The notes under the pieces: model-generated
Told to the model about the DNA's origin: nothing
Seen by the model: only the letters and a program-made list of their open reading frames with translations
Database searches by the model: none
Translations under genes and position numbers: made by a program
Shown here: one piece after another, positions 998 through 17,376 of the stretch
How positions within the stretch are numbered: position 1 is the stretch's first letter
Layout: the number at the start of each line of letters is the position of its first letter
Assembly (NCBI RefSeq): GCF_013401555.1
Contig: NZ_CP058552.1
Coordinates: 2,046,001 to 2,110,000 of the forward strand
Direction: 5' to 3'
DNA from: Paenibacillus sp. E222
GTDB taxonomy: Bacteria; Bacillota; Bacilli; Paenibacillales; Paenibacillaceae
DNA length: 64,000 bases

Positions 998-1027
998 ATG
1001 TCAGAGACATCCTTTATTTTTAGAAGT

Positions 1028-1041
1028 GAAGGTATACCTTC
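1028..1041. promoter_or_regulatory. 14-bp perfect palindrome, candidate operator
   Basis: GAAGGTATACCTTC is a perfect inverted repeat. It lies just downstream of the likely -10 box of the sensor kinase gene (1057-1062, minus strand) and about 30 bp before its start codon, a typical position for a repressor or autoregulation site. The binding protein is unknown. Confidence 0.45.
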
Positions 1042-1056
1042 CGGTAATGTATGTCG

Positions 1057-1062
1057 ATTATA
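1057..1062 (-). promoter_or_regulatory. Extended -10 promoter for the sensor kinase gene
   Basis: On the minus strand the sequence reads TATGATATAAT, an extended -10 (TG-N-TATAAT), about 60 bases before the kinase start. No convincing -35 hexamer is visible, which is common for extended -10 promoters. Confidence 0.45.
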
Positions 1063-1088
1063 TCATAGGCAGTTTTCCCAACCGAAGA

Positions 1089-1100
1089 TGACTTAAGTCA
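1089..1100. promoter_or_regulatory. 12-bp perfect palindrome upstream of the ABC exporter promoter
   Basis: TGACTTAAGTCA is a perfect inverted repeat ending 35 bp upstream of the -35 box of the exporter promoter. This is where an activating response regulator would be expected to bind. Assignment to the partner regulator of the divergent kinase is inference. Confidence 0.45.
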
Positions 1101-1135
1101 CCTTTGTTTCATGACCTTTCGTACCTTCGCAGAAG

Positions 1136-1164
1136 TTCACAATTCGTTACAATACAAATATAAA
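1136..1164 (+). promoter_or_regulatory. SigmaA-type promoter of the ABC exporter operon
   Basis: TTCACA (1136-1141) and TATAAA (1159-1164) are separated by exactly 17 bp, 52 bp upstream of the ATPase start codon. The hexamers are close to consensus; the spacing is ideal. Confidence 0.5.
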
Positions 1165-1215
1165 ATCCAGTCGCAGGAGCAGGGGATAGCTGGACGGAAG
1201 AGGAGTGTATAATCT

Positions 1216-2151
1216 ATGGCTATGCTTGAAGTGGATCATGTGGTGAAACGATACGGTAGCAAGCTGTCAGTGGATCATTTGAATCTGAGTGTAGGTAAAG
1301 GTGAAATTTTTGGATTGCTTGGACCCAATGGAGCAGGGAAAAGTACCACCATTAGCATGATTGCCGGTCTTTTAAATATGGATCAGGGTGAAATTCGGTT
1401 GGATGGCATATCGGTTCGGGAACGGCCGCTTGAGGTGAAACGCAAAATCGGGCTGGTACCACAGGATCTGGCTTTATACGAAACGATGACCGCTGCGGAG
1501 AATGTAACTTTTTTTGCCAGACTATATGGACTCCGTGGAAAAATGCTGAAAGAAAGAGTGCAGGAATCTCTTGAATTTGTAGGTTTGCAGGACAAAGCGA
1601 AGGATGCCCCGTCCACTTTCTCCGGTGGTATGAAACGTAGGCTGAACATTGCGTGTGCCATTATGCATCGACCGGATTTAATCATTATGGATGAACCAAC
1701 AGTGGGCATTGACCCGCAATCGCGGAATCATATTTTGGAGTCGGTCCGTACGCTTAATCAGATGGGGTCAACCATCATTTATACAAGTCATTATATGGAG
1801 GAAGTTGCTGCAATCAGTCACCGGGTAGCGATTATGGATCAGGGACATATCATTGCCTGCGGCACCGAAGCAGAGCTGAGAGAACGAGTTGCATCTGATG
1901 AAAAAATAGTGCTCACCACTTCGGGCATTGGTCCCGATGTTGTGGAGGAGTTAAAGCTTCACCCCCGTGTGCGGGCGGTAGACGTATCAGACGATACATT
2001 GATCGTTACGCTGCCTTCTGCGCAGCAGGATCTACAGGATATGCTCTTCATTTGCAGCAAACATGAAATCTCCATTCAATCGCTCAAGGTTGAAGAGCCT
2101 GATCTGGAAACGCTCTTCCTCAATCTGACCGGACGTACGCTTCGGGACTAG
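1216..2151 (+). CDS. ABC transporter ATP-binding protein (LnrL-like)
   Basis: This is the 311-residue ATPase of an ABC-2 type exporter. Visible motifs are Walker A GPNGAGKST (about residues 36-44), the signature FSGGMKRR (about 136-143), Walker B LIIMDEP and the H-loop TSH. A C-terminal domain of about 90 residues follows the ABC core, as in drug and lantibiotic exporters. The ATG is preceded by AGAGGAG. The next two genes encode ABC-2 permeases, 11 bp downstream and then overlapping. The size and order (311, 396, about 392 aa) match the linearmycin-resistance exporter LnrLMN of Bacillus, so export of an amphipathic antibiotic or lipid-active compound is likely but unproven. Confidence 0.9.
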   Translation: MAMLEVDHVVKRYGSKLSVDHLNLSVGKGEIFGLLGPNGAGKSTTISMIAGLLNMDQGEIRLDGISVRERPLEVKRKIGLVPQDLALYETMTAAENVTFFARLYGLRGKMLKERVQESLEFVGLQDKAKDAPSTFSGGMKRRLNIACAIMHRPDLIIMDEPTVGIDPQSRNHILESVRTLNQMGSTIIYTSHYMEEVAAISHRVAIMDQGHIIACGTEAELRERVASDEKIVLTTSGIGPDVVEELKLHPRVRAVDVSDDTLIVTLPSAQQDLQDMLFICSKHEISIQSLKVEEPDLETLFLNLTGRTLRD

Positions 2152-2162
2152 GAGGAGCTCAG

Positions 2163-3353
2163 ATGAACATATGGCATATTTGCATCTTTGAGTTAAGGCG
2201 GATTCTGAAAATTCGCTCCGTTCTGCTGAATCTGTTTATTCTACCGCTGCTGCTCATCTTTATATTGGGTACTGCACTTTCCAGTACAATGGGTACGGCA
2301 AAAGAAGCCATTCCTGACCCGGTGAGAGTAGGGATCATTCAAACAGAAGAGAATTCCGGTTCGGGAGCGATCAGTAAAGCTTTAAATGCATTTGTGACAT
2401 CCCCGGCGGTAGCCGACATGATGAAGGTACAGAGCATACCTACGGAAGAAGAGGCTGTAAGTGCAATGCGAGGTGGTGATTTGGATTTTGCCGTAATCGT
2501 CCCATCAGATCTGGAGGAGCAGATCATGAAAGGGGAAGAGGCAAGGTTACAATGGATACTGGGGAAAGACGGAACACTCAATGTTATAGGTGAAACTTTG
2601 TTTACGCGGTTCACGGATGAACTGAACAGACAGGTCGCTGCGGCGAAAGTGTTAGGTCCTGATGCAGCAGCTGCAATGGCTGAGCATTCGCAGACCCATA
2701 GTGCGAGCTCTTCATATATAGCCGTCAGCAGTCCCGGAGAAGTGGGCACCTCTTATAGTGCTTCACAATATTATGCGGCTTCCATGCTCGCCATGTTCAT
2801 GCTTTACTCAGGCATGACAACTAGCAACAGTCTGTTTGGTGAGAGAGACAAAAAAACGCTAACTCGCTTACAGGCAGCTCCAATCGGCAATGGGGTCATT
2901 TTTGCAGGGAAAATTGCAGGCAACAGCCTGATTGCTTTCTCGCAGGCCATCATCATCGTATTGATGACACATTGGTTATATGGTGTGAACTGGGGCACAC
3001 ATCCCTGGCTGATTGTTCTGATCTGTGTGCTAATTACGCTGGCTTCCATGACTCTCGGTGTGATCGTTGCCCTACTTTTCAAGAATGCCGCATCCGCAAG
3101 CGCCGCTCTTCAAGGCATCATTATTGCCATGACGTTTATTAGCGGTGGATTTACACCCATTGCCGTTGGTTTTGTACAGCGAATAAGCGAATTTACGGTG
3201 AATCACTGGGCTCTGCAAAGTTTTCTGCGAATGATGCTGAACGCTCCCGTAAGTGAGATTATGTATAGCATCATGATGCTTGGTGCGGTATGTACGGTAA
3301 TGGTGGCGGCAGCGGGACTGATCTATAGAAAGGCGGGATATCGGTATGAATAG
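2163..3353 (+). CDS. ABC-2 type permease (LnrM-like)
   Basis: This is a 396-residue membrane protein with the ABC-2/DUF3533-like layout: one N-terminal membrane helix (about residues 20-42), a large extracytoplasmic domain (about 45-220) and five or more C-terminal helices. The sequence SMLAMFMLYSGMTTSNSLF starts the C-terminal membrane part, followed by the typical cytoplasmic stretch GERDKKTLTRLQAAP. An AGGAGG site immediately precedes the ATG, and its stop overlaps the start of the next permease by 8 bp (ATGAATAG), indicating translational coupling. It should form the transmembrane half of the exporter with the downstream permease. Confidence 0.88.
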   Translation: MNIWHICIFELRRILKIRSVLLNLFILPLLLIFILGTALSSTMGTAKEAIPDPVRVGIIQTEENSGSGAISKALNAFVTSPAVADMMKVQSIPTEEEAVSAMRGGDLDFAVIVPSDLEEQIMKGEEARLQWILGKDGTLNVIGETLFTRFTDELNRQVAAAKVLGPDAAAAMAEHSQTHSASSSYIAVSSPGEVGTSYSASQYYAASMLAMFMLYSGMTTSNSLFGERDKKTLTRLQAAPIGNGVIFAGKIAGNSLIAFSQAIIIVLMTHWLYGVNWGTHPWLIVLICVLITLASMTLGVIVALLFKNAASASAALQGIIIAMTFISGGFTPIAVGFVQRISEFTVNHWALQSFLRMMLNAPVSEIMYSIMMLGAVCTVMVAAAGLIYRKAGYRYE

Positions 3354-4523
3354 CCTCAATATTGCCTTGCTGATGATCAGGCGCACGATATTGCGCAAAC
3401 GCGGCTTTATCACGTTTTTTCTTCTTCCTTGCCTTGTCGTCACAGGAACAATTGCGCTGTTTGGGAGCGAGGAGGGAACGCGTGCGGTCATTCCTTATGT
3501 AAACGAGGATCAGGGTCCAGCAGGAGCATGGATCTTGAATGAGCTTGGCCGCAAAGAGGAATATCTGCTCAAACCCATGAAAACCGTTGTGGAAGTTAAT
3601 GAAGCCATCGCGCAGCAAACGGGGAGTTCAGGACTCGTTATCCCGACGCATTACACGGACGATCTACTGCAAGACAAACAGCCTGAAGTCCAACTGGTAG
3701 AACTTCGTGTCAGAGAAAGCTCTTATACGCTGAGAGCTGCGGTTGAAGGTTTGGCGGCGGGATTGAATCAATCTGCTTCGGCAGTACTGGCAGCAACAGA
3801 TGCGGCATCGGGTGAGATTCCTGATCCAGCTCTGGCAGAAGCAAAATTGAAAGAGTTGTTACTTGAACTTGGCAAACATCAAATTTCGGGTGAAGCAACG
3901 GAGCTTCAGATGTATCCCAAACCGGGTCTGAACAATGTCACAGGTTTTACGATCATGTTCATGATGGGGCTGCTGACCAGTACAGTTGCTGTTATTATGG
4001 AAGACCGCAGGCAGCGGACGATGGCAAGAGTCTACACGGCGCCAGTCCGGGCTTATGAAATTGCACTGGGCAATTTTTTGGGGAGTTTTGCAATCGGTTT
4101 GATCCAAATTGTTTGGTGCTGGGGATTAGCAGATGGGTGCTTCATTATGATGCGGGGATCCCATTTGGCATTCACCTTCTCATTCTGGCCGCATTTATGC
4201 TGGTCTCCATGGGGATTGCAAGTACGGTTGCCGGCTTGATTCGTGAATCGAAAAATGCAACCATGCTGAATTCACTGATTATTACACCGACGTGTATGAT
4301 TGGCGGCTGCTTCTGGCCGCTGTCGATCATGCCGGATTATATGCAAAAACTCGCCAATTTTGTTCCGCAGAAATGGGCGATTCAAGCGGTGGAAACGATC
4401 TCTGCAGGTGGTACGCTGTCGGATATTACACTGCCGCTGCTGATATTATTTGGCATGGCAGCCATTTTGCTGACGGTGGGTTCTGCGATTCTTCGTCCCA
4501 GCCAGCCGGGGGTGAATGCATAA
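3346..4523 (+). pseudogene. Second ABC-2 type permease (LnrN-like), split by a -1 frameshift
   Basis: Frame 1 runs from the ATG at 3346 and loses homology after GLIQIV near 4111, ending at 4239. The true continuation (VLGISRW, then helices to the end) is in another frame from 4113 to the stop at 4521-4523. Joining the frames near GTTTGG at 4111-4116 by restoring one missing base gives about 392 residues, the same size and topology as the partner permease: an N-terminal helix, an external domain, then PVRAYEIALGNFLGS and five C-terminal helices including the conserved CFWPLSIMP region. Either the exporter is inactivated in this strain or a base was lost from the short T run in sequencing or assembly. 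The rest of the operon looks intact, which favours a recent or artefactual change. Confidence 0.8.
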
Positions 4524-4549: not shown

Positions 4550-4582
4550 AGCCGGATGCACAATTATGCATCCGGCTTTTTG
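4550..4582 (+). terminator. Rho-independent terminator of the ABC exporter operon
   Basis: AGCCGGATGCA and TGCATCCGGCT form an 11-bp perfect stem with a 6-nt loop, followed by TTTTT. It lies 27 bp after the permease stop. Confidence 0.88.
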
Positions 4583-4733
4583 AGCTGCCATAAGGCATGG
4601 AGCGTGCCGATTTCTGTTTCGTGTAATTGCTGGGGAAGAATCAGTGAAGTTATACCTATGTCCTGGTGCTACTCATATGTGATAAATTGATCGTTAGAAC
4701 TATAGAAAGATTGAGATTTCAAAGATTGGCCTA

Positions 4734-4762
4734 ACATGCCATCACATAACAACAAGGCATGT
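4734..4762. promoter_or_regulatory. Inverted repeat upstream of the hscC-like operon
   Basis: ACATGCC (4734-4740) and GGCATGT (4756-4762) form a perfect 7-bp inverted repeat with a 15-nt spacer, about 50 bp before the chaperone start. It has no T-run, so it is more likely an operator or an RNA hairpin than a terminator. It does not resemble a CIRCE or CtsR site. Nothing else stands out in this 290-bp gap. Confidence 0.3.
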
Positions 4763-4813: not shown

Positions 4814-6511
4814 ATGACAATTATTGGTATTGATTTGGGGACAACGAACAGCCTTGTATCTTGCTGGATGAATGGAGAATCGGTTATTATTCCGAATGCC
4901 CTGGGTAATCGTTTGACGCCTTCAGTTGTCAGCGTGGATGACAATGGAGAGGTACTGGTAGGAGAAGTGGCCAAGGAGCGAATGATCACGCATCCTGAGC
5001 GTACAGCATCCGTTTTCAAAAGATACATGGGTACTGGAAGAACCTTTAGTTTGGGTACATATCGATTTTTACCGGAGGAACTTTCGGCGTTTGTTTTGAA
5101 ATCACTCAAAGCGGATGCAGAAGCTTTTCTGGGAGAAGTAGTGACAGAAGCTGTCATCAGCGTGCCAGCATATTTCAATGATGCTCAACGAAAGGCAACT
5201 CAGCGTGCAGGTGAGCTTGCCGGCATTAAGGTGGAACGCCTTCTTAGTGAACCGACTGCGGCAGCCATTGCTTATGGTTTGCATCAACAGCAATCTGAAA
5301 CCAAGTTTTTGGTATTTGATCTGGGTGGAGGTACATTTGATGTATCCGTCTTGGAGCTGTTTGATCAGATTATGGAAGTAAAATCGGTTGCTGGGGATAA
5401 CTTTCTGGGTGGTGAAGATTTCACACGTCTGCTCGCGGATTTGTTTGCGTTGGAGCATCAGATTCAGCAAGATACCTTGTCAGCCAAAGAGCAGTCGGCA
5501 TTATGGAAGCAGGCAGAGTTGTGTAAGCGGGCATTAAGCGATGGACGTGAGGGTGCAATGTCCCTGACTTTTGAAAAAGGGTTGAAAGAGTTTGGTATAG
5601 ATCGTTCCAGTTTCGATCAGGCGGCGAAGCCATTGCTGGCACGTCTGCAAAAACCGGTTGAACGGGCACTGCGTGATGCTTCAGTTAAACTAAGTGAATT
5701 GGATGCAGTAATCCTCGTGGGAGGAGCTACTCGCATGCCACTTATTTATTCATTTACTGGCAAGCTGTTTGGTAGATTGCCTGCCAATCACTTGCATCCC
5801 GATGAAGCTGTTGCGCTAGGTGTCGGCATTCAGGCGGCAATGAAATCGCGCCATGAAGATTTACAGGAAGTCATCCTGACGGATGTATGTCCATATACAT
5901 TGGGGACTTCGGTTTCCGTATCACTCGGAAATGGACGATACGAATCCGGGATGTTTTCCCCAATTATCGAACGAAATACAGTGATTCCGGTCAGTAGAGT
6001 GGAACGTTACTACACGATAGACGATAATCAGACCTCTCTTACTGCGGACATTTACCAAGGTGAGAGCCGCGTGGCCAAAAACAACGTGAAGCTTGGGGAT
6101 CTGGCCATCTCAATACCTCCAGCTCCTGGAGGAGAGCAAGCTGTGGATATCCGGTTCACGTATGACATTAACGGCATCCTTGAAGTGGAAGTCACAGCGG
6201 TTGGAACGGGAGAGAAGAAGGTAGCGATCATTCAGGCGAAGGAAACTGAGTTGTCCAAGGAGGAGATTATCGAACGTTTCAAAGCGTTGGAGGCTATCAA
6301 GATTCATCCCCGGGAACGGATGGAGAATCGCTTGCTTTTGGCTCGGGGAGAACGAATGTATGAAGAATCGCTGTCTGAGCATCGGGAAATCATCGCCAAG
6401 GCCATGCTTGGATATGAAGAGACCCTTAAACGTCAGGATGACAAGGAAATCAAGAAAGAAGCTGAGAAGTTGAAGGAAGTGCTGGATCAAATCGAAAAAG
6501 TTTGGGGGTGA
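4814..6511 (+). CDS. hscC: Hsp70-family chaperone, HscC type
   Basis: This is a 565-residue Hsp70, shorter than DnaK (about 610) and close to E. coli HscC (about 556). The ATPase domain shows the phosphate-1 loop GIDLGTTNSLVS (about residues 5-16), phosphate-2 loop FDLGGGTFDVSVLEL (about 170-184) and the adenosine motif ILVGGATRMP (about 301-310). The substrate-binding domain begins near DVCPYTLGTSV (about 360) and ends in a short charged helical lid. The C-terminus lacks the DnaK EEVD-like or long Gly-rich tail. It has GAAGG before the ATG. A J-domain protein follows after 7 bp, then a DUF1266 protein, which is the company HscC keeps in enterobacteria. It is not the housekeeping DnaK: there is no grpE or hrcA here. 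Substrates are unknown. Confidence 0.87.
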   Translation: MTIIGIDLGTTNSLVSCWMNGESVIIPNALGNRLTPSVVSVDDNGEVLVGEVAKERMITHPERTASVFKRYMGTGRTFSLGTYRFLPEELSAFVLKSLKADAEAFLGEVVTEAVISVPAYFNDAQRKATQRAGELAGIKVERLLSEPTAAAIAYGLHQQQSETKFLVFDLGGGTFDVSVLELFDQIMEVKSVAGDNFLGGEDFTRLLADLFALEHQIQQDTLSAKEQSALWKQAELCKRALSDGREGAMSLTFEKGLKEFGIDRSSFDQAAKPLLARLQKPVERALRDASVKLSELDAVILVGGATRMPLIYSFTGKLFGRLPANHLHPDEAVALGVGIQAAMKSRHEDLQEVILTDVCPYTLGTSVSVSLGNGRYESGMFSPIIERNTVIPVSRVERYYTIDDNQTSLTADIYQGESRVAKNNVKLGDLAISIPPAPGGEQAVDIRFTYDINGILEVEVTAVGTGEKKVAIIQAKETELSKEEIIERFKALEAIKIHPRERMENRLLLARGERMYEESLSEHREIIAKAMLGYEETLKRQDDKEIKKEAEKLKEVLDQIEKVWG

Positions 6512-6518
6512 TTCGTGA

Positions 6519-9308
6519 ATGGACTTCTGGGCGCGATTAGAACTCGAGCCGACGCAGGATGTGAGGGTTATCAAACGAGCTTATGCCAAGCAACTTCGGA
6601 TGACTCATCCGGAAGATGATCCGGACGGTTTTCAGTTACTTCGATCCGCTTATGAACAAGCACTCAAGGCTGCTAAAGAGCTTGAGAAAGAGGGCTTTCT
6701 GTTAAGTGATCGAGATCAGATTGAACTGAGACCCGTGCATAGGCAGGAAATAAGACATGATGAGGATAGACAAACTGAACAACTAAATAACTTGGATCGG
6801 GAGACTTTGATCGAAGTTGATGCCAAGCATGATATTGAAAATCAGGAATGGTTGCAGGAGAATGAGGCTGATGTTAAACCAGTGTATCCCTCCATAGAAC
6901 AAGAGCACTGGGTGCCTCCGTCTTGGATTGAAGTCTCTGCTCCTGCAGAAGATCTAAGTGCTACTGTTTTACCGCTGAATAGAGCGAATTGGGTATCTCC
7001 ATCGTGGATGGAGGCATTATCGCTTGAAGGTTCCAGAGACCTGAGCGATTCAGTGTTGCTGCTGGCTCAGGCACGAGGTATTCTGGAGGATATTTTTAGG
7101 CGCCCAGAAATCACTGTTTGGGAAGAATGGACACAGAGAGAGGAGCTATGGCGGCTCGATGTGAAATATCACACCGGAACTGAATTGCTGCAGATTCTGG
7201 TGGAATATCCTTATATGCCGAAAGCAATCTGGCGCATATTAAATGAATTCTTCGGATGGACGGAGCGTCAGGATGAATTAAGAGCGTTGTTATCGGATGA
7301 AATTGCTGATCGTCCTACTCTAGAGCTGGAACGTGCTTGGGAATTGCGTTACGACACGTTTGATCCTGAACAAGAAGTGGATTATGAAACGTTCATACGG
7401 TACCGGGATACTGTATTTCAAAGGATGTTACAGGGGGAGTGGAGACAAGTCAGTCCCCATATTGACGCTGCGATGGAGTTATATGCAGACGATCCCGATA
7501 TGCTTCTGTTGGCAGGCAAATTTCGTCTGTGGAATCGAGAGGAAATGGCTGCAGAGATGTTGTTTGAACGACTGATTGAACTGGTTCCTGAATCTATAGA
7601 CGGATTGCTTCACCGTGCAAGATTGTTGGAAAATGCGGGACATCTTGAGCTGTCCGTCAATTTGTACAATAAGATTCTGGAGCTTCATCCCAATCATCTG
7701 GATGCCTTAAATGGACTTGCGAGATATCATCAACATCACGGAGATGACGCCAAGGCAATCCATCTATTGCAACGGATTGTCTCCATTCATCCGTTTGATT
7801 TTGAAGCACAGATTGCTTTGATAGAATTAAATCTGGCTTTAGTTGAGGCGCAGAAGAAAACGGCAGAGGATGAGAAGGATTGGAGTGCTCGCAAAGAGCT
7901 TCAACGTCTGGTTGCCCTAAGTTATGTCGAAATGGATGAAGATGAACAGCTTCTTCGATATATGGCCGAAATTCACATGGCGGATAAGCTCGATGAAGGT
8001 TTATATGTATTGTGGGCGCAGGCATGCATTCGGATGGAGAAAAATGAGGAAGCGCTGGAGATCCTAAAAAATGCGGAAATGGCAGCAATCGAAGCGGAAG
8101 GCGATATTTTTGCAATCCTTTTTGAACGCGGTCAGTTGCATCTCGAAATGGGAAACAGCCCAGAGGCAATACTTGATCTGGATAAATCGACCCAGTTGAA
8201 TCCTTCCCATGCAGGGGCGTGGCACTCTCTTGCGATTGCACATCATCGCCAGGAACAAAACATGAAATGTATTTATTTTTCAGATAAGGCCATTGAACTT
8301 GATCCTCACGTATATGCATACCGATCATTAAGGGCATTTTGTTACTATATTAACGGAAGATATGAAGAAGCGTTGGTTGACTATGAGCATGTTACACTTG
8401 ATGATTCGGATCACACGATGGACTGGTTTCGCAAGGGCTTCTCACATCTGAAAAGGCAGCAATATGCCGAAGCGCTCCAATCACTTAAAGTATCACAAAC
8501 ATTTGGGTGCTCTACAAACACACCCTATTATTTGGCGGTTGCTCATGCAAGATTGGGGGAGGGCGTTCAGGCGCTGGAGGAAGTTAGAACATTTCGCAGG
8601 GAAAATCCTGAAGATCCGGACGGTCCTCTGCTTGAAGGGGATATTTTGCGTGAGCAAGGAAGGGTTAACGAGGCACTGAATGTGTACAGGAATGGCCTGA
8701 ACGAAAACCCCGGCACATATGAACTGATCAGAATGGTAATTGTTTGCGTCATGGAGTCCGATGTTCAAAAACGAGATGATATATTGAATCGGCTGGCTGA
8801 AGAGATGTCTAACTTCGATTCGATTCAGCTGTGGGGAATACTCTTCATAACACGCTATCATGTGGAAAGTCATTCTTGGGAGCGAGCCCTTTCTTGGGTT
8901 GAGGTTTATATAGACGGAGAACCATCAGAGAATATTGATCCTCATATTTGGTTGTACGCGGGGATTGCTGCTTACCGTATGGGGGATTTGAATCAGGCGC
9001 TGCTTGATCTCGACAAAGCGTATCGTGGAGGGCTTGAAGGTGATGTATGCAGTTACCTGAGCATGGTCTATTACGATATCGGAAATATGGATCGTGCGCG
9101 TATTTATGCCGAAAAAGCAGTTCGTGAACAGCCGGAACATCCAGACTACGTTCTGAGATGGGAAGCTATCGTTGCCCGTGCAGAACAGCGAGGACTTCCA
9201 TTTTGGAGAAGATTGAGAAAATCAAAACCGGCGTATGAACTGTGGCCATCCAGGTTACCGCTTCAACATCTGATGCCTGATGACGTCGTGAGTTTACATT
9301 TTGTATAA
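6519..9308 (+). CDS. J-domain/TPR protein, putative HscC co-chaperone
   Basis: This is a 929-residue soluble protein. Residues 1-55 form a divergent J-domain: FWARLELEPTQDVRVIKRAYAKQLRMTHPE, then DDPDGFQLLRSAYEQAL. The catalytic HPD tripeptide reads HPE (residues 30-32), followed by DD. A charged, low-complexity linker follows (about 60-190), with a duplicated W-V-x-PSW motif at HWVPPSWIEV and NWVSPSWMEA. From about residue 310 to the C-terminus there are many TPR-like repeats (for example ALNGLARYHQHHGDDAKAI). The family resembles enterobacterial DjlB/DjlC, J proteins that work with HscC. The GGGGGTG site overlaps the hscC stop, so the two are translationally coupled. The likely role is recruiting protein clients through the TPRs and stimulating the HscC ATPase; the missing HPD Asp makes stimulation uncertain. 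Confidence 0.83.
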   Translation: MDFWARLELEPTQDVRVIKRAYAKQLRMTHPEDDPDGFQLLRSAYEQALKAAKELEKEGFLLSDRDQIELRPVHRQEIRHDEDRQTEQLNNLDRETLIEVDAKHDIENQEWLQENEADVKPVYPSIEQEHWVPPSWIEVSAPAEDLSATVLPLNRANWVSPSWMEALSLEGSRDLSDSVLLLAQARGILEDIFRRPEITVWEEWTQREELWRLDVKYHTGTELLQILVEYPYMPKAIWRILNEFFGWTERQDELRALLSDEIADRPTLELERAWELRYDTFDPEQEVDYETFIRYRDTVFQRMLQGEWRQVSPHIDAAMELYADDPDMLLLAGKFRLWNREEMAAEMLFERLIELVPESIDGLLHRARLLENAGHLELSVNLYNKILELHPNHLDALNGLARYHQHHGDDAKAIHLLQRIVSIHPFDFEAQIALIELNLALVEAQKKTAEDEKDWSARKELQRLVALSYVEMDEDEQLLRYMAEIHMADKLDEGLYVLWAQACIRMEKNEEALEILKNAEMAAIEAEGDIFAILFERGQLHLEMGNSPEAILDLDKSTQLNPSHAGAWHSLAIAHHRQEQNMKCIYFSDKAIELDPHVYAYRSLRAFCYYINGRYEEALVDYEHVTLDDSDHTMDWFRKGFSHLKRQQYAEALQSLKVSQTFGCSTNTPYYLAVAHARLGEGVQALEEVRTFRRENPEDPDGPLLEGDILREQGRVNEALNVYRNGLNENPGTYELIRMVIVCVMESDVQKRDDILNRLAEEMSNFDSIQLWGILFITRYHVESHSWERALSWVEVYIDGEPSENIDPHIWLYAGIAAYRMGDLNQALLDLDKAYRGGLEGDVCSYLSMVYYDIGNMDRARIYAEKAVREQPEHPDYVLRWEAIVARAEQRGLPFWRRLRKSKPAYELWPSRLPLQHLMPDDVVSLHFV

Positions 9309-9320
9309 GGAGGCACTGCG

Positions 9321-10004
9321 TTGAGAGGACACCATGCGACAGAATCCTCGTCTATACATCGTGTTACGGACAAAGAACTTTGGTTTCGTGGCATGGCTGC
9401 TATACTTAACGAAATCATCGATCTGGATATTAACAATGATTATGAGTATCATGCAGATGAAGAACAACGAGAAAAATTTTGCACCAAATTAGAGGAAAAC
9501 TGGGAAATTCATGACAGGAAGAGTTTGATGTCTTCACTGGATTGGATTCGGAACGAAGGATATCGTATATCATTTGATGAGAAGCGGACTTTCTTGAGTA
9601 CAATGTCTGAAAAGGATCAGGGGAATTATATGAACTCACTGGATCCAGATACAGGGAAATATCACGAATATCTGGTGGTTAAAACATATATGCACAAATT
9701 ACCAGCCGAAGGAGTTGCAGCGTGGGACTGGGGATGTTATGCGAACCTGTGTCGACAAAGCGCCCATGTGGGTTATATAACTGAAACTGAATCAGAACAG
9801 CTGGTTTTACAGGCGGCATTAGACGCACAATCCGCGTATACGTCCTGGAAGGCCTACACGGTGGCTTTTATGGCAGGGAGGCTATACTGGCTTGAAAAAA
9901 CCGATGAATCGGTTGTAAAGCGGCAAATGAATTATCTACAGAATCTGTTTGTTCATCCAAACAGCATCTATAAAAAGATAGATTGGAATCTTTCGTTACA
10001 ATAG
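9321..10004 (+). CDS. DUF1266 domain protein
   Basis: This is a 227-residue protein with no signal peptide or membrane segment. It starts at TTG, chosen because AAGGAGG lies 7 bases upstream. The second half carries the DUF1266 signature: AWDWGCYANLCRQSAHVGYITETESEQL (split here: AWDWGCYANLCRQ, then SAHVGYITETESEQL, about residues 135-163), then a W-rich region, SWKAYTVAFMAGRLYW. It is last in the hscC operon. In E. coli two DUF1266 genes (ybeR, ybeU) flank the djlB/djlC/hscC cluster, so the association is seen in two distant phyla. Function is unknown; being a client or adaptor of the HscC-J pair is inference. Confidence 0.72.
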   Translation: MRGHHATESSSIHRVTDKELWFRGMAAILNEIIDLDINNDYEYHADEEQREKFCTKLEENWEIHDRKSLMSSLDWIRNEGYRISFDEKRTFLSTMSEKDQGNYMNSLDPDTGKYHEYLVVKTYMHKLPAEGVAAWDWGCYANLCRQSAHVGYITETESEQLVLQAALDAQSAYTSWKAYTVAFMAGRLYWLEKTDESVVKRQMNYLQNLFVHPNSIYKKIDWNLSLQ

Positions 10005-10045
10005 CCTTCTGTTATGAAATTGATATTCATACGTTGGAAAAAGAA

Positions 10046-10090
10046 AAGCACGATCTTGCTCAGGTTCTGAGACAGATCGTGCTTCTTTTA
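10046..10090. terminator. Bidirectional terminator between DUF1266 gene and motB
   Basis: AAGCACGATC (10046-10055) and GATCGTGCTT (10075-10084) form a perfect 10-bp stem. It is followed by TCTTTTAT on the plus strand and preceded by an A-rich run that gives T's on the minus strand, so it can serve both converging operons. Confidence 0.8.
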
Positions 10091-10137: not shown

Positions 10138-10980
10138 TTATGGCTGGAGTTGCCGCAACACGGTAATTTCTACACGGCGGTTCTTTTGCCGTCCAGCCGC
10201 CGTGGTATTGTCACTGGTTGGGCGGGTATCCGCGTATCCGGCATATTGAAAACCGTCAGGATCAAGCTTTTCTTTATCGAGAAAAAATCGCAATACAGAC
10301 AGTGCACGTGCACCGGAAAGCTCCCAATTGTCTTTATAGGTAGCGTTTGCCCCGACAGGAACGTTGTCCGTATGTCCTTCAATGCTGACAACTGTGCTCA
10401 GGTCACGGAACAGGCTTGCCAATTTGCTTAGTGTGGGTGAAGCATCACTTTTGAGTGCAGCTTTTCCCTGATCAAACAGGAAGCGGTCACTGAGTGTGAT
10501 AGAGATGCCTTGCGGCTTGTCTGCAACAAAAATCTGATTTTCCAGTTTATTGTCCTCGATATACTGGGTAATCACATTGAACAGATTTTGCAGCTCCTGC
10601 TCCTGTGATCTGAATTGCTCTTCCCGCTCCGTAAGTGGCTGATCTTCATCATCTGGCTTGCCTGTTTCGGAGTCGGAAGAGGATCCTTCGCCTTCTCCAG
10701 GGTCTTCGCCCTGAATCTGGGAAGGTGGATTTTTGGTAATGGCTTGTCCAGCTGTACCACCAATGCCTTCACCTTGATCAAGCAGGGAGTTGGATTGGTT
10801 GAAAGTATTTTGCAACGATTGAGTAACCACATCGTATTTGCCAGAATCCAGATTGCTCATGGCATACATGATCACAAAAAAGATCAGCAGCAGGGTAATG
10901 AGATCGGCATAGGTAATCATCCAGCGATCTCGATGATCTCCAGGTTCACGTTTTCCGCGCCGTTTACTGCGCCGACTCAT
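10138..10980 (-). CDS. motB: Flagellar motor stator protein MotB
   Basis: This is a 280-residue stator subunit. After a basic N-terminus, the single membrane helix WMITYADLITLLLIFFVIMY carries the ion-binding Asp (YADLIT, about residue 26). A plug/linker segment rich in Gly, Ser, Asp and Pro follows (about 70-120), then an OmpA-like peptidoglycan-binding domain with IEGHTDNVPVG, NWELSGARA and GRQKNRRVEI. The gene overlaps motA by 17 bp. The ion (proton or sodium) cannot be settled by eye; motB and the sodium-type motS share this core. No other flagellar genes are in the window. Confidence 0.92.
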   Translation of the reverse strand: MSRRSKRRGKREPGDHRDRWMITYADLITLLLIFFVIMYAMSNLDSGKYDVVTQSLQNTFNQSNSLLDQGEGIGGTAGQAITKNPPSQIQGEDPGEGEGSSSDSETGKPDDEDQPLTEREEQFRSQEQELQNLFNVITQYIEDNKLENQIFVADKPQGISITLSDRFLFDQGKAALKSDASPTLSKLASLFRDLSTVVSIEGHTDNVPVGANATYKDNWELSGARALSVLRFFLDKEKLDPDGFQYAGYADTRPTSDNTTAAGRQKNRRVEITVLRQLQP

Positions 10981-11761
10981 CCAATCCCTCCTTCACTACA
11001 GGACGTGTGATCTGGCGGTGAGAGAGTGTGAAGGACTCCAGCCGTTTACGCACAAGCTGAGGGTTCTCCCCGTTCTGAATGGATAGTACGCCCTCGAGCA
11101 GCATTTCCATCGTCTGAATTTCGTCTGCTCCACGGGATTTGATTTTGGAAGCAATGGGTAAAAAGATAAGATTGGCACTGGCGACCCCGTAAAGGGTTGC
11201 GGTAAAAGCAACAGCAATGGCTGGTCCGAGTCCGGTAGGATCGGTCAGACTGCCAAGTACCTGAATAAGTCCCATCACGGTACCAATGATACCCATCGTT
11301 GGAGCATAACCGCCTGCTGATTCAAAAATTTTGGCATAACCTTCATATTTTTGTTCGACGGAATCAATTTCCATCTCCATGATCTGGCGAACAACATCCT
11401 GATCTGTGCCATCGACAACCATCTGAATACCATCTTGTAAAAATGGATGCGGATGGTACATCACTTTTCGTTCCAGTGCAAGCACGCCTGAGCGGCGAGC
11501 AATTGAAGACATATCTACAAGTTCTTCAACCCACTGGCTTGAGTCATTGTTGTTACGCCCAAAGGCCATGCGGAGGGCAGCAGGAATCGTACGCAGCCGA
11601 TGTGCAGGGAAACTGGCAACAACTGCGGCAATTGTTCCACCAAATACAATTAGAGCAGCGGTCTTTTGCATCAGACCGGATAATTGGCCACCTTCCCATA
11701 AAAAACCACTAATGACTGCGGCAATCCCGGCAATAATGCCGATAAGTGTCGCAATATCCAT
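10964..11761 (-). CDS. motA: Flagellar motor stator protein MotA
   Basis: This is a 265-residue MotA/ExbB-like stator subunit with four membrane helices: two near the N-terminus (about residues 2-22 and 32-52) and two after residue 140 (YAPTMGIIGTVMGLIQVLGS and the AIAVAFTATLYGVASANLIF region). The large cytoplasmic loop between helices 2 and 3 carries the charged residues that contact the rotor. AGGAGTGGG precedes the ATG. The gene is divergent from uvrB and cotranscribed with motB. Confidence 0.93.
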   Translation of the reverse strand: MDIATLIGIIAGIAAVISGFLWEGGQLSGLMQKTAALIVFGGTIAAVVASFPAHRLRTIPAALRMAFGRNNNDSSQWVEELVDMSSIARRSGVLALERKVMYHPHPFLQDGIQMVVDGTDQDVVRQIMEMEIDSVEQKYEGYAKIFESAGGYAPTMGIIGTVMGLIQVLGSLTDPTGLGPAIAVAFTATLYGVASANLIFLPIASKIKSRGADEIQTMEMLLEGVLSIQNGENPQLVRKRLESFTLSHRQITRPVVKEGLDESAQ

Positions 11762-11792
11762 AAATTAACCCACTCCTATCTTTAGTTCGCGA

Positions 11793-11821
11793 TTGCATCA
11801 CTTGCACAGACGAGGTATAAT
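11793..11821 (+). promoter_or_regulatory. SigmaA-type promoter of uvrB
   Basis: TTGCAT (11793-11798) and TATAAT (11816-11821) have a 17-bp spacer, about 110 bp before the uvrB start. This is a strong consensus-like promoter. Confidence 0.65.
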
Positions 11822-11828
11822 TAAACGG

Positions 11829-11840
11829 GAACAAATATTC
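11829..11840. promoter_or_regulatory. Candidate LexA (DinR) SOS box
   Basis: GAACAAATATTC closely matches the Gram-positive SOS box GAAC-N4-GTTC with one change (ATTC instead of GTTC). It lies 7 bp after the -10 box, over the expected transcription start, where LexA would block initiation. uvrB is an SOS gene in Bacillus. Confidence 0.6.
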
Positions 11841-11930
11841 CTATTACTATAAGTTTTCCCATATGTAAATTCGGGGAACTTCGACAATATATAGTGACTA
11901 TTATTTTAGACGATAGGGTGAGATACGGCA

Positions 11931-13922
11931 ATGAGCGATATTATAATGAGCGACAAAACGTTCGAAATCGAGTCAGAGTTTTCTCCCCAAGGTGATCAGC
12001 CTGTAGCCATTGAAGAATTGGTGAAGGGTGTTCAGGAGGGGAAGAGATATCAGACGCTACTGGGTGCAACCGGTACGGGTAAGACGTTTACCATTGCACA
12101 GACGATTGCCAAGCTGCAACGTCCCACGCTGATTATTGCCCACAATAAAACGCTGGCAGCACAGCTTGCAAGTGAGTTCAAAGACTTTTTTCCAAATAAT
12201 ATGGTTGAGTATTTTGTCAGTTACTACGATTACTTTCAGCCAGAAGCCTATATTCCTTCCTCGGATACGTATATCGAGAAGGATTCAAGTATCAATGAAG
12301 AGATCGATAAATTGCGCCATGCGGCTACGAGTTCATTGTTCGAACGCAGAGATGTCATTATTGTAGCGAGTGTATCCTGCATCTATGGTTTGGGTTCGCC
12401 GCATTCGTATTCGAGCATGCTTCTGTCCCTGCGGGTAGGAATGGAGAAACCACGCAATCAGATTTTGTCTCGTCTGGTAGAGATTCAGTATCAGCGCAAT
12501 GATATTAACTTTGTGCGTGGCACGTTCCGCGTTCGCGGAGACGTTATCGAAATTTTCCCGGCATCAAAGGGTGAACATGCGATTCGGGTGGAATTGTTCG
12601 GTGATGAGATTGAGAAAATTACGGAGATTGACGTGTTAACCGGAGAACTGGTTGGCGAACGTGAACATATCGCCATATTCCCGGCATCTCACTTCGTAAC
12701 CCAAGAAGAGACGATGCGCGTCGCGTTGGTGAACATTGAGCGTGAACTGGAAGAGCGTCTTGAAGTGCTGAGAGAACAGGGGAAATTGCTGGAGGCTCAG
12801 CGACTGGAGCAACGTACACGTTACGATATCGAGATGATGAAGGAAGTCGGGTTCTGTTCAGGGATTGAGAACTATTCCGGACCACTGACGTTCCGTGAAC
12901 GTGGCGATACACCTTACACACTGATGGACTATTTCCCGGATGACATGTTGATTGTGGTCGATGAGTCCCACGTGACGCTGCCACAGATCCGTGCAATGTA
13001 TAACGGTGACCAAGCACGGAAGACTGTACTGGTTGACCACGGATTCCGTCTGCCATCTGCGTTGGATAACCGTCCGCTCAAATTCGAAGAGTTCGAAGAA
13101 AAGATGAATCAGATCATCTATGTATCCGCGACACCGGGTCCTTACGAAATAGAGCATACGGATACGATGGTACAACAGATCATTCGTCCAACCGGTCTGC
13201 TTGATCCAATTATTGAACTGCGCCCAACGAAGGGACAGATCGATGATCTGATCGGTGAGATTAACGACCGGATTGCGAAAGACGAGCGGGTCCTGATCAC
13301 AACATTAACGAAGAAGATGTCCGAGGATTTAACAGATTATCTGAAGGAGATTGGAATCAAGGTACGTTATTTGCACTCCGAGATCAAGACGTTGGAGCGT
13401 ATGGCGATCCTGCGTGATCTAAGGCTGGGTACGTTCCATGTGCTGATCGGAATCAACTTACTCCGGGAAGGTCTCGATCTTCCTGAAGTTTCTCTGGTAG
13501 CCATTTTGGATGCCGACAAAGAAGGCTTCCTGCGCTCGGAACGCTCACTGATCCAAACGATTGGTCGGGCAGCGCGGAACAGCGAAGGTAGAGTCATTCT
13601 GTATGGTGACAAAGTGACGGATTCCATGGATAAGGCGATTAAGGAAACAGAACGCCGTCGTGCAATCCAGATTGAATATAACGAAAAACATGGCATTACA
13701 CCACAGACGATTCGTAAAAAAGTGCGTGATGTGATTGAAGCAACCAAAGTTGCCGAATCCAAGAAAGATTATCTTACAGGCGCTGCCGAGAAGATGTCGA
13801 AGAAGGAACGTCAGTCACTTATTCAGCGCCTAGAGGCAGAGATGAAAGACGCAGCCAAAAACCTGCAGTTTGAGCGTGCTGCTGAACTTCGTGATGCATT
13901 GCTGGAACTGCGCGCAGAATAG
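11931..13922 (+). CDS. uvrB: UvrABC excinuclease subunit B
   Basis: This is the 663-residue helicase-like damage verification subunit of nucleotide excision repair. Visible are Walker A GATGTGKT (about residues 45-52), the beta-hairpin region [20 protein letters not shown], the DESH box (VVDESHVT), helicase motif VI ([13 protein letters not shown]) and the C-terminal UVR motif [13 protein letters not shown] that binds UvrC. Two starts are possible, ATG 11931 and ATG 11946 ([10 protein letters not shown]); neither has a strong site, and the upstream one has GGGTGAG 12 bases away. Transcription appears SOS-controlled. uvrA lies downstream, separated by an unusual 595-bp gap. Confidence 0.97.
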
Positions 13923-13994
13923 CTTATTAAGTAGACTGTAGAGATATAAGATAAAGGCACAGTTAATGAAGTGTCGCAACAAGGATAGATCTGC

Positions 13995-14028
13995 AACAAG
14001 AGAACGGCCGGGTGGCCGTTCTCTTGTT
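13995..14028 (+). terminator. Long hairpin after uvrB
   Basis: AACAAGAGAACGGCC and GGCCGTTCTCTTGTT form a perfect 15-bp stem with a GGGT loop. The stem ends in TTGTT but there is no long T-run after it, so termination may be partial. Confidence 0.6.
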
Positions 14029-14156
14029 GAGTCAGGAAATCAGTGATATCTACCGATAATTAGATATGTTGAAAACGTAAAATCAGGTCTATACTGATAG
14101 AAAAGTTGAAATTGGTTAAAAGGTTTATAGGGAAAACATTTGGAAGTCGTGTACCC

Positions 14157-14294
14157 GGGAGCCGAGCCGAAGGGAATGGCGACCATCGCGAGCGATGCAA
14201 AGCCGTGAGCATCCCGGTGTTCAAAGGGAGCCGAGCCAAAGGCAATGGCGACCTTCGCGAACGAGGCGAAGCTGTGAGCGCCCTCTCGTGGTAG
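14157..14294. repeat. Two tandem 69-bp repeat units between uvrB and uvrA
   Basis: Unit 1 begins at 14157 and unit 2 at 14226, both with GGGAGCCGAGCC. About 46 of the first 54 positions match (for example AATGGCGACC and GTGAGC at equivalent places); the last 15 bases diverge. The units are GC-rich compared with the AT-rich flank at 14041-14150. They can be translated into a repeated peptide on either strand, but no ribosome site or family supports a gene. Confidence 0.75.
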
Positions 14295-14300
14295 AGCGGC

Positions 14301-14453
14301 CGTCCAAGAGACCGGCGATCGGCCGGGATCTTGGACGAAGCTGCGGGCACACGACAACCTTCACATAGCAAGACCCGACCATTCACCATTGCACCGCTTG
14401 TTTCGGGTGTCCAGAGGGCTGCGCCCTTTGGGGCCCTCCCTTGGAAGGGAGGG
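14301..14453. repeat. Hairpin cluster (REP/BIME-like) upstream of uvrA
   Basis: Three hairpins follow the tandem repeat: CGTCCAAGA/TCTTGGACG (14301-14337, with an inner CCGG-rich stem), AGGGC-TGC-GCCCT (14415-14427) and CCCTCCCTT-GG-AAGGGAGGG (14434-14453, a perfect 9-bp stem with a 2-nt loop). The last ends 64 bp before uvrA. Without T-runs they look like extragenic palindromic repeats rather than terminators. They may hinder read-through from uvrB to uvrA. Confidence 0.6.
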
Positions 14454-14517
14454 TTTGGGAGGGATTGAAAAGCCTTTAAAAAAGGTTGGAATTTCAACAT
14501 TGAAAGGATGAAACCCA

Positions 14518-17376
14518 TTGGCGAGCGAGAACATTGTCATCAAAGGCGCGCGAGCGCATAACCTCAAAAACATTGATATCACCATCCCGCGTGACCGTTT
14601 TGTTGTATTAACCGGTCTGAGTGGCTCAGGCAAGTCCTCGCTGGCTTTTGACACGATATATGCCGAAGGACAGCGACGTTACGTTGAATCATTATCGGCT
14701 TATGCACGGCAGTTTCTGGGGCAGATGGAGAAACCGGACGTTGATTCCATTGAAGGATTGTCTCCGGCCATCTCCATAGATCAGAAAACGACAAGTCGTA
14801 ACCCGCGTTCTACCGTGGGAACCGTTACGGAAATCTATGATTACCTGCGTCTGTTGTTTGCACGTGTGGGACATCCTCATTGTCCGGATCATGGCGTGGA
14901 AATTAGCTCCCAGACCGTAGAACAAATGGTTGACCGCATCATGCAATATCCTGAACGGACCCGATTGCAGATTCTGGCACCGATTGTCTCGGGACGCAAG
15001 GGTGAACACAAAAGTGTGTTTTCCGATATCTCCAAACAAGGTTTTGTCCGTGTTCGGGTGAACGGGGAATTACGTGATCTGTCCGAAGATATTCAATTGG
15101 AGAAGAACAAAAAGCATACGATTGAAGTTGTGGTTGACCGGATAGTAATCAAGGAAGATGTGCAATCACGTTTGGCCGATTCTATTGAGACTGCACTTAA
15201 TCTGTCCGGTGGACAACTGCTGGTAGATATTATGGGTGAAGAAGAACTGCGTTTCAGTTCCAACTTTGCCTGCCCGGTGTGTGGATTCAGTATTGAAGAG
15301 CTTGCGCCGCGCATGTTTTCGTTCAACAGCCCATTTGGAGCCTGCCCGGATTGTGATGGATTAGGTGTCAAAATGATTGTTGACCCGGACCTGTTGGTAC
15401 CGGATCGCAGCAAAACCATTGAAGAGGGTGCGTTTGATGCCTGGACAGGTGGTACATCCACCTATTATCCGCAGTTCCTCAAATCGGTATGCGAACACTT
15501 TAACATTCCGCAAAACGTACCTGTAGAAGACCTGCCTGCTGAACAAATGAACAAGCTTTTGCAGGGTACAGGTACGGAGAAAATTCGTTTCCGGTACGAG
15601 AATGATTTTGGACAACGGAAAGAAGCATTGGTTACCTTTGAAGGTATTGTGAATAATCTGGAGCGTCGTTACCGTGAGACAGCATCCGAAGGTATCCGTG
15701 AATTCATTGAAGGTTATATGAGTGCTAAGCCTTGTGGAACATGTAAAGGACAGCGACTGAAACGTGAAAGCCTTGCAGTTACGATTAACGATCACAACAT
15801 GGCGTATGTGACAAGTTTGTCCATTGGAGAAGCTGGTCGTTTCTTCGACTCGCTGCAATTGAGTGAGAAAGAAGAAATAATCGCTAAACTTATTTTAAAA
15901 GAAATCAACAGCCGTCTCGGCTTCCTGGTAAACGTAGGACTGGATTACTTGACCCTGAGCCGTGCTGCAGGAACGTTGTCCGGTGGTGAAGCCCAGCGGA
16001 TCAGACTGGCGACACAGATTGGTTCCAGCCTGATGGGCGTGCTGTATATTCTGGATGAGCCGAGTATCGGCCTGCATCAACGGGATAACGATCGTCTGAT
16101 CTCCACACTCGCTCACATGCGGGATATCGGTAACACACTGATCGTGGTTGAACATGATGAGGATACGATGATGGCCGCCGATTATATTATCGATATTGGT
16201 CCGGGGGCAGGTATCCACGGTGGTACCATCATGTCTCAGGGCACACCGGAAGAAATCATGAATGACGAGAACTCGCTAACGGGTCAATATCTCAGTGGGC
16301 GCAAGTTTATTCCGGTACGTACCGAACGCCGTAGTGTCGGGGACCGCTGGTTGGAAGTACGTGGAGCGAAGGAAAATAACCTGAAAAACCTGAATGTAAA
16401 AATTCCAGTGGGTGTATTCACCGCAGTAACGGGTGTATCCGGCTCGGGTAAATCAACGCTAATTAATGAGATTTTGTATAAAACGCTGGCTCGTGATTTG
16501 AACCGCGCACGGGTACGCCCTGGTCAGCACAAAGAGATTCGGGGTCTGGAACATATCGATAAAGTTATTGATATTGACCAGTCGCCAATCGGACGGACAC
16601 CACGTTCCAACCCGGCTACCTATACAGGCGTCTTTGATGACATCCGTGATCTGTTTGCACAGACCAATGAAGCCAAAGTGCGTGGATACAAAAAAGGCAG
16701 ATTTAGTTTCAATATTAAAGGTGGTCGTTGTGAAGCATGTCGTGGGGACGGCATTATCAAAATTGAGATGCACTTCCTGCCAGATGTCTACGTGCCTTGT
16801 GAGGTCTGCAAAGGCAAACGGTATAATCGCGAAACCCTTGAAGTCAAATACAAAAACAGAAATATTGCAGATGTGCTGGAAATGACGGTAGAGGATGCAA
16901 CGCAGTTCTTCGAGAACATTCCGAAAATTCATCGCAAAATGCAAACCTTACTTGACGTAGGGTTGGGCTATATTAACCTGGGTCAGCCTGCAACAACGTT
17001 GTCTGGCGGTGAAGCACAACGCGTGAAGCTCGCTTCCGAGTTGTATCGTCGCAGTACGGGTAAAACAATATATATTCTGGATGAGCCAACGACCGGTCTT
17101 CATGTCGATGATATTGATCGTCTGCTGAACGTCCTGCACCGTCTGGTGGATTCCGGAGAATCGGTACTGGTTATCGAGCATAACCTGGATGTTATCAAAA
17201 CAGCCGATTATATTGTTGATCTGGGTCCAGAAGGTGGAAGTGGTGGCGGAACTATTGTTGCGACAGGTACACCAGAGGATATTATTAAAGTGGAAGCTTC
17301 CTATACTGGTAAGTACTTGAAGCCAGTATTGGAGCGGGATACGGAACGAAGCAAGACGTTACAATTGACGGAATAA
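14518..17376 (+). CDS. uvrA: UvrABC excinuclease subunit A
   Basis: This is the 952-residue damage sensor ATPase, with two ABC modules. Module 1 has Walker [13 protein letters not shown] (about residues 31-42) and signature [13 protein letters not shown]; module 2 has [12 protein letters not shown] (about 640) and [13 protein letters not shown]. Zinc-binding cysteine pairs are CPVCGFS..CPDC, CGTC and [14 protein letters not shown]. The start is TTG at 14518, since AAAGGATG lies upstream and the nearby ATG at 14508 is out of frame. No SOS box or promoter is evident immediately before it, so expression may come from the uvrB promoter through the repeat region or from a promoter masked within it. 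Confidence 0.97.

Follow-up and report, generated by a model that had tools for sequence, protein, structure and literature searches.

The window, the whole stretch of 64,000 nucleotides analysed here from the 7.5 Mb single-contig genome of Paenibacillus sp. E222, carries three open reading frames on the forward strand that encode an HscC-type Hsp70 of 565 amino acids (hscC, 4814–6511; assigned by ORF, Pfam, alignment and tree), a J-domain/TPR protein of 929 amino acids (6519–9308; ORF and Pfam) and a DUF1266 protein of 227 amino acids (9321–10004). The intergenic gaps are 7 and 12 bases, and the three closely coupled genes that a sequence-only reading had placed at 4814–10004 are found there. 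The cassette, in the order HscC-J-DUF1266, is set between an ABC-transporter operon and motB, in a housekeeping neighbourhood (ABC transporter, motBA and uvrBA).

Two candidates exist for the inverted repeat claimed upstream of the cassette. The stronger, a hairpin at 4550–4577 (folding z −5.6) close to the left edge of the exchanged tract described below, immediately follows the upstream ABC-transporter genes and most likely serves as the terminator of that neighbouring operon; among 12 aligned hscC upstream regions, only those of the window and of P. pabuli (G001) have the shorter repeat at 4734–4762 (ACATGCC-N15-GGCATGT) intact. All 12 of these regions share a box with many invariant columns, found in the window at 4645–4688 on the cassette strand (AGTTATACCTATGTCCT ... 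TGATAAATTG) and present also where the J and DUF1266 genes lie elsewhere in the genome. A sigma-70 scan had no entry at 4645–4688 on that strand, and the box may be a promoter or an operator. Downstream, folding backs the expected terminator, a likely intrinsic one for the three-gene unit on the same strand at about 10040–10090 (z −3.9), which the consensus terminator scan does not list.

The first protein matches the Pfam HSP70 family (3e-138) and shares 46% identity with E. coli HscC, against 36% with E. coli DnaK and 40% with the genome's own DnaK, which is a separate gene. In the Hsp70 tree it groups with E. coli HscC, and 24 HscC rows are split from DnaK and HscA at 100/100, HscA being a long branch, in agreement with the assignment made from the letters. 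Its length falls inside the 550–580 amino acids given for HscC in the part of a review cited here (PMC8215388), which also names as defining features the GrpE loop, helix B and the L1,2 insertion. The GrpE signature loop is deleted, as a six-column gap (298–303) of the alignment in the HscCs that is filled in both DnaKs, nine residues of lid helix B are missing, as a nine-column gap before IHPR, and loop L1,2 of the beta domain carries 9 residues more than in both DnaKs, one above the 4–8 described in that part of the review, E. coli HscC having 4. The long C-terminal tail is also absent. An NBD deletion matching DnaK 76–101 is present (24-column gap), but the DnaK of the same genome has it too and it is therefore not diagnostic of HscC. 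By these sequence features, the window Hsp70 is HscC-type.

The large J-domain/TPR protein that had been proposed is likewise borne out. Pfam identifies the repeats clearly (TPR_2, 2e-34; solenoid at about residues 303–880, 7425–9158) and the J domain weakly (DnaJ, 0.0021, under the Pfam cut-off), yet the J domain (residues 1–54, 6519–6680) is backed by an AlphaFold2 model (pLDDT 79), since the ten best Foldseek matches of this model all contain J domains (best 2och, probability 1.00, E 0.074). The HPD motif is replaced by HPE at residues 30–32, as in all 14 aligned J rows, 12 from the genus or order that were found via DUF1266 or HscC, together with E. coli DjlB and DjlC. In the cited part of a 2026 review (PMC13254874), HPE, which occurs in DjlB and DjlC, is described as seemingly the sole tolerated replacement of HPD; by analogy with DjlC, the HPE J domain would function like an HPD one. 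HPE is not universal, as HscC-adjacent J proteins of two genomes in our phylum sample, G310 and G483, have NPE; such NPE proteins lie beside HscC at L198 6354–9428 and L199 4908–8930. A further HscC-adjacent J-like protein, from G399 (L154 10468–11745), has a weak J match of 27 bits and no HPD/HPE-type motif. Between the J domain and the TPRs lies a linker (6909–7007) with WV(P/S)PSW repeats of no wider conservation, present in two copies here and three in G001 within an otherwise near-identical cassette.

TPR_14 matches were found in 34 of 39 chosen J proteins from loci with DUF1266, and TPR_2 or TPR_19, considered separately, in 5 of 19 proteins of the other J set, which comprises 17 from loci without DUF1266 and two E. 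coli proteins and was scored per set, not per member. At this set level a strong TPR sign is not seen for DjlB and DjlC, yet DUF1266 genes adjoin them. Membrane-like segments after residue 60, not always terminal, occur in 59 of 90 other J rows; none was predicted in the window J protein, and its clients are therefore probably cytosolic, judging from the sequence.

The third gene, with a TTG start preceded by AGGAGG, encodes a DUF1266 protein as had been claimed: it matches Pfam PF06889 over nearly its full length (6e-37, 128 bits against a curated cut-off of 27). Its model is all-helical (pLDDT 94.6), and comparison with solved structures gave no clear match. The most conserved residues, G131, A134, D136, W176 and G186, suggest a structural role rather than an enzyme active site.

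We examined whether the three families occur together within the genus. In 75 congeneric genomes, HscC (called at matches above 600 bits, DnaK staying below 390) was found in 15 and DUF1266 in 16, and every one of the 15 HscC genomes has DUF1266, as a conserved grouping would predict (Fisher p 7e-15, inflated by relatedness); the sole HscC-less DUF1266 genome, G008, has DUF1266 and J. On a UvrB tree of 73 of the 75 genomes (G083 and G073 left out), we count at least 8 changes for HscC and at least 9 for DUF1266. There are 7 supported independent pairs; across 200 random pairings, DUF1266 follows HscC in all 7 in 192 cases and in six of the 7 in the remaining 8 (sign test, median p 0.016); the unlinked genomes alone give 2 such pairs, below test size. 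The site between the ABC permease and motB, inspected in 73 genomes, holds the full cassette in 7 (about 5.9 kb), HscC alone in 6 (about 2.4 kb) and is empty in 37 (about 0.5–0.65 kb), the ABC match being absent in 23. Among the 37 are G008, G017 and G051, where DUF1266 or HscC is present at another place. The 6 HscC-alone genomes have unchanged flanking genes and neither J nor DUF1266 at the site; the upstream box is retained in all 5 that were aligned. All 6 hold a divergent J/DUF1266 pair elsewhere, with long matches only 20–29% identical to the window's, and HscC and the pair thus persist together even when unlinked.

Searching named genomes with the J alignment gave 269 relatives, of which we took the best 80 loci; they come from related species, some genomes being represented more than once, and by record titles fall in Bacillota, Pseudomonadota and one Collinsella. 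Within 10 kb of the J gene, 50 of these best 80 have both an Hsp70 and DUF1266, 17 an Hsp70 only, 13 DUF1266 only and none neither, Hsp70 here meaning any phmmer match to the window protein. We estimate that, with about two Hsp70 genes per 7.5 Mb, fewer than 1% of random 20-kb stretches would contain an Hsp70. Among the 67 Hsp70 loci, L122 is a weak match (363 bits), L094 is truncated at the contig end and L124 is in two pieces. Judged by record titles, the 50 complete loci are from Bacillota and Gammaproteobacteria; DUF1266 is absent from the Collinsella locus. The cassette is found in at least two bacterial phyla. The 13 Hsp70-less loci come from 12 genomes (L067 being counted with L062 from the record prefix; P. 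tundrae and Root52 are G013 and G061 of the genus survey), 11 of which have HscC elsewhere, 57–84% identical to the window's, and one, G494, with J and DUF1266, only DnaK. At least four more of the 12 genomes hold a second, complete locus (L072, L078, L096 and L107), so that their HscC already has a neighbouring pair. The absence of DUF1266 from 17 of the 80 loci places it outside the core.

In a phylum sample of 398 genomes, HscC was found in 9, DUF1266 in 14 and both in 6 (p 5e-8; 3e-4 without the three positives from Paenibacillus itself), and a J match adjoins HscC in 8 of the 9 (weakly in G399), lying elsewhere in G062. One genome counted as HscC-less, G295, carries on another contig (L201 2642–6425) a J match (489 amino acids, 54 bits) with an adjoining Hsp70 of 655 amino acids that scores 361 bits against the window HscC, below the cut-off used. 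Scattering of DUF1266 without HscC partners, which the sequence-only reading had set against its own proposal, was found in part: of the genomes with DUF1266, 8 of 14 in the phylum sample and 1 of 16 in the genus have no HscC. The claim of a conserved functional module is nevertheless supported as a grouping in sequence, both co-occurrence tests favouring it.

The eight HscC-less DUF1266 genomes of the phylum sample gave two fusions to a copper-amine-oxidase N-terminal domain (L145 8258–9331 and L152 8847–10490), two proteins with TPRs, one that matches TPRs weakly and three in which DUF1266 is the sole domain recognised, and in none of the eight did the fetched stretch around DUF1266 contain an Hsp70 or J profile match. 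Corynebacterium glutamicum, among 14 control genomes, also has DUF1266 without HscC. HscC/J thus accounts for one part of a broader DUF1266 family, other members of which are proteins of HscC-less genomes. In G017 (L047 6781–7647) and G051 (L050 7943–8809), two genomes that in addition carry HscC with DUF1266 genes close by, orphan DUF1266 genes were also seen, around which the sequence fetched gave neither a J nor an Hsp70 match. The L047 protein has a lipoprotein-like N-terminus, which together with the copper-amine-oxidase-N fusions suggests that extracytoplasmic DUF1266 proteins exist.

Comparison with P. pabuli (G001) revealed a tract from about 4500 to about 10230 that is 97–100% identical per 250 bases, whereas the left (1001–4500) and right (10251–15000) flanks are 74–90% and 82–97% identical, respectively. 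The dS between the two is 0.01–0.02 in the three cassette genes and 0.53–0.54 in uvrB and motA. G078 has flanks nearer to the window (90–100%, with one partly aligned block at 85%), yet its site is empty. With a near-identical cassette between diverged neighbours, the whole cassette was apparently exchanged as one unit by recombination in the flanks, which would be the simplest account of these alignments. Among G072, G003, G088 and G054, dN/dS is 0.10–0.19 for the J tail, 0.04–0.09 for DUF1266 and 0.02–0.03 for HscC; for G000–G001 the values are 0.52, 1.28 and 0.20, respectively, on a dS of only 0.01–0.02. No clear sign of positive selection was found by dN/dS in the genomes compared, and the quick change of the J tail and DUF1266 may reflect weak constraint.

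To characterize how the three proteins have diverged, we analysed 63 triplets, in which two-pair loci enter one HscC twice. Mean identity is 59% for HscC, 57% for the J domain, 21% for the J tail and 24% for DUF1266. The J tail and DUF1266 correlate at 0.91, and at 0.82 as a partial r given HscC (reached in 0 of 999 permutations), while the partial r of HscC and DUF1266 given the J tail is −0.23. Given DUF1266, the partial r with HscC is 0.53 for the J domain and 0.65 for the J tail. Eight loci, that of E. coli among them, carry two J/DUF1266 pairs; when partners were swapped within these loci, only 4 of 255 alternatives beat the true pairing, with species controlled for. The signal comes from five of the eight loci (L046, L064, L078, L096 and L112), which represent few related species, and swapping E. 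coli (L053), L088 or L111 alone hardly alters r. A J-TPR-DUF1266 fusion of 672 amino acids adjoins HscC in Bacillus sp. REN10, and points the same way as the tail–DUF1266 pairing. The sequence comparisons thus link DUF1266 with the J tail more than with HscC, with the J protein as a putative hinge whose J domain goes with HscC and whose tail goes with DUF1266.

Linkage, joint presence and absence even where unlinked, co-divergence, pair duplication, fusion and the near-identical cassette all support a reading in which the three proteins form one dedicated Hsp70 machine, towards which we lean slightly. HscC would be its conserved motor and the HPE J domain would start HscC by triggering its ATPase, by analogy with E. 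coli, where DjlC stimulates the ATPase of HscC (cited part of PMC8215388). The TPR tail would bind DUF1266, and the two together would form a variable arm that selects clients; they are read as the recognition arm because the tail goes with DUF1266 and the J domain with HscC. A bolder version, which we put forward tentatively and at somewhat less than even likelihood, is that HscC may be a programmable Hsp70, a fixed motor working with exchangeable J-tail/DUF1266 cassettes that become duplicated, take each other's place and pass between species as whole units; DUF1266 would then represent a novel class of targeting subunit for Hsp70, at work from Paenibacillus to E. coli.

A serious rival, which we nonetheless judge rather unlikely, is that DUF1266 is the dedicated client, folded, assembled or remodelled by HscC and the J-TPR protein, and itself does the cellular work. 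Its close pairing with the J tail, with which it co-diverges, would fit a J protein with one client, as for HscB and IscU, the occurrence of DUF1266 in other architectures with no Hsp70 or J nearby means that it may act in its own right, and its absence from 17 of the best 80 loci is in keeping with a client; the J-TPR-DUF1266 fusion, however, would be easier to accept for a subunit than for a client, and the conserved residues look structural and do not suggest an enzyme active site. That the same absence, together with DUF1266 standing without HscC in 8 of 14 phylum-sample genomes, marks it as a passenger that is merely co-transcribed with an HscC–J machine seems to us highly improbable, given the joint gain and loss on the UvrB tree, the persistence of an unlinked J/DUF1266 pair with HscC in six genomes, and the fusion, pair duplication and swap test.

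The patchiness of HscC, with its at least 8 changes in one genus, the apparent block swap of the cassette between species and the fast-changing J tail and DUF1266 could also be those of a conflict or defence island against phages or competitors, in which the chaperone matures or releases an effector. This we regard as improbable: PADLOC, which covers known systems only, had no match to HscC or DUF1266 and matched the J-TPR protein only to PrimPol in the TPR region (E 0.01), the window DUF1266 is unmatched at E 1e-5 in 72,556 plasmid and 50,697 phage records, the neighbourhood is one of ABC-transporter, motBA and uvrBA genes, and positive selection left no clear sign.

In the cited part of the 2021 review (PMC8215388), the Cd2+ and UV effects of HscC are still termed unexplained. 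If DUF1266 fixes specificity, a family of unknown function would gain a role and the clients could be traced through it, and the twofold J/DUF1266 pairs beside a single hscC in E. coli and several Paenibacillus make the idea testable. The literature passages covered here that name DUF1266 give it no function and contain no link to HscC function; by term count, DUF1266, ybeR and ybeU are absent from the HscC review (PMC8215388), and in the cited part of a study of Dickeya (PMC6329079) three consecutive entries among tabulated species-specific genes are hscC, a YbeS-like J gene and a DUF1266 gene, given without comment. HscC with DjlB and DjlC is known from E. coli; what would be new, on these comparisons, is DUF1266 as the third partner.

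As the sequence-only reading had stated, E. coli K-12 carries the three families in one cluster, ybeR (DUF1266)-djlB, ybeU (DUF1266)-djlC and hscC, and its HscC (Hsc62), DjlC (Hsc56) and DjlB share with the window the HscC clade, the HPE J domain, a J gene beside hscC and adjacent DUF1266 genes. The two systems differ in that DjlB and DjlC are 475 and 483 amino acids long (ORFs) with one membrane segment near the C-terminus, whereas the window J protein has 929, is rich in TPRs and has no predicted segment, and in that the window genes run HscC-J-DUF1266 on one strand, whereas in E. coli two DUF1266-J units are accompanied by hscC on the opposite strand. With DnaK-DnaJ-GrpE the cassette shares the logic of an Hsp70 and a J domain, but compared with DnaK the window HscC has no GrpE loop, a helix B nine residues shorter and no long C-terminal tail. 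The DUF1266 protein, at 128 bits, is a nearly full-length member of PF06889, the family of YbeR, YbeU and YnjI. HscA and HscB form an Hsp70/J pair devoted to few clients, HscB recognising IscU, and the HscA-HscB-IscU system is the model for the client rival; the window Hsp70, however, groups apart from HscA, and its neighbours are ABC-transporter, mot and uvr genes.
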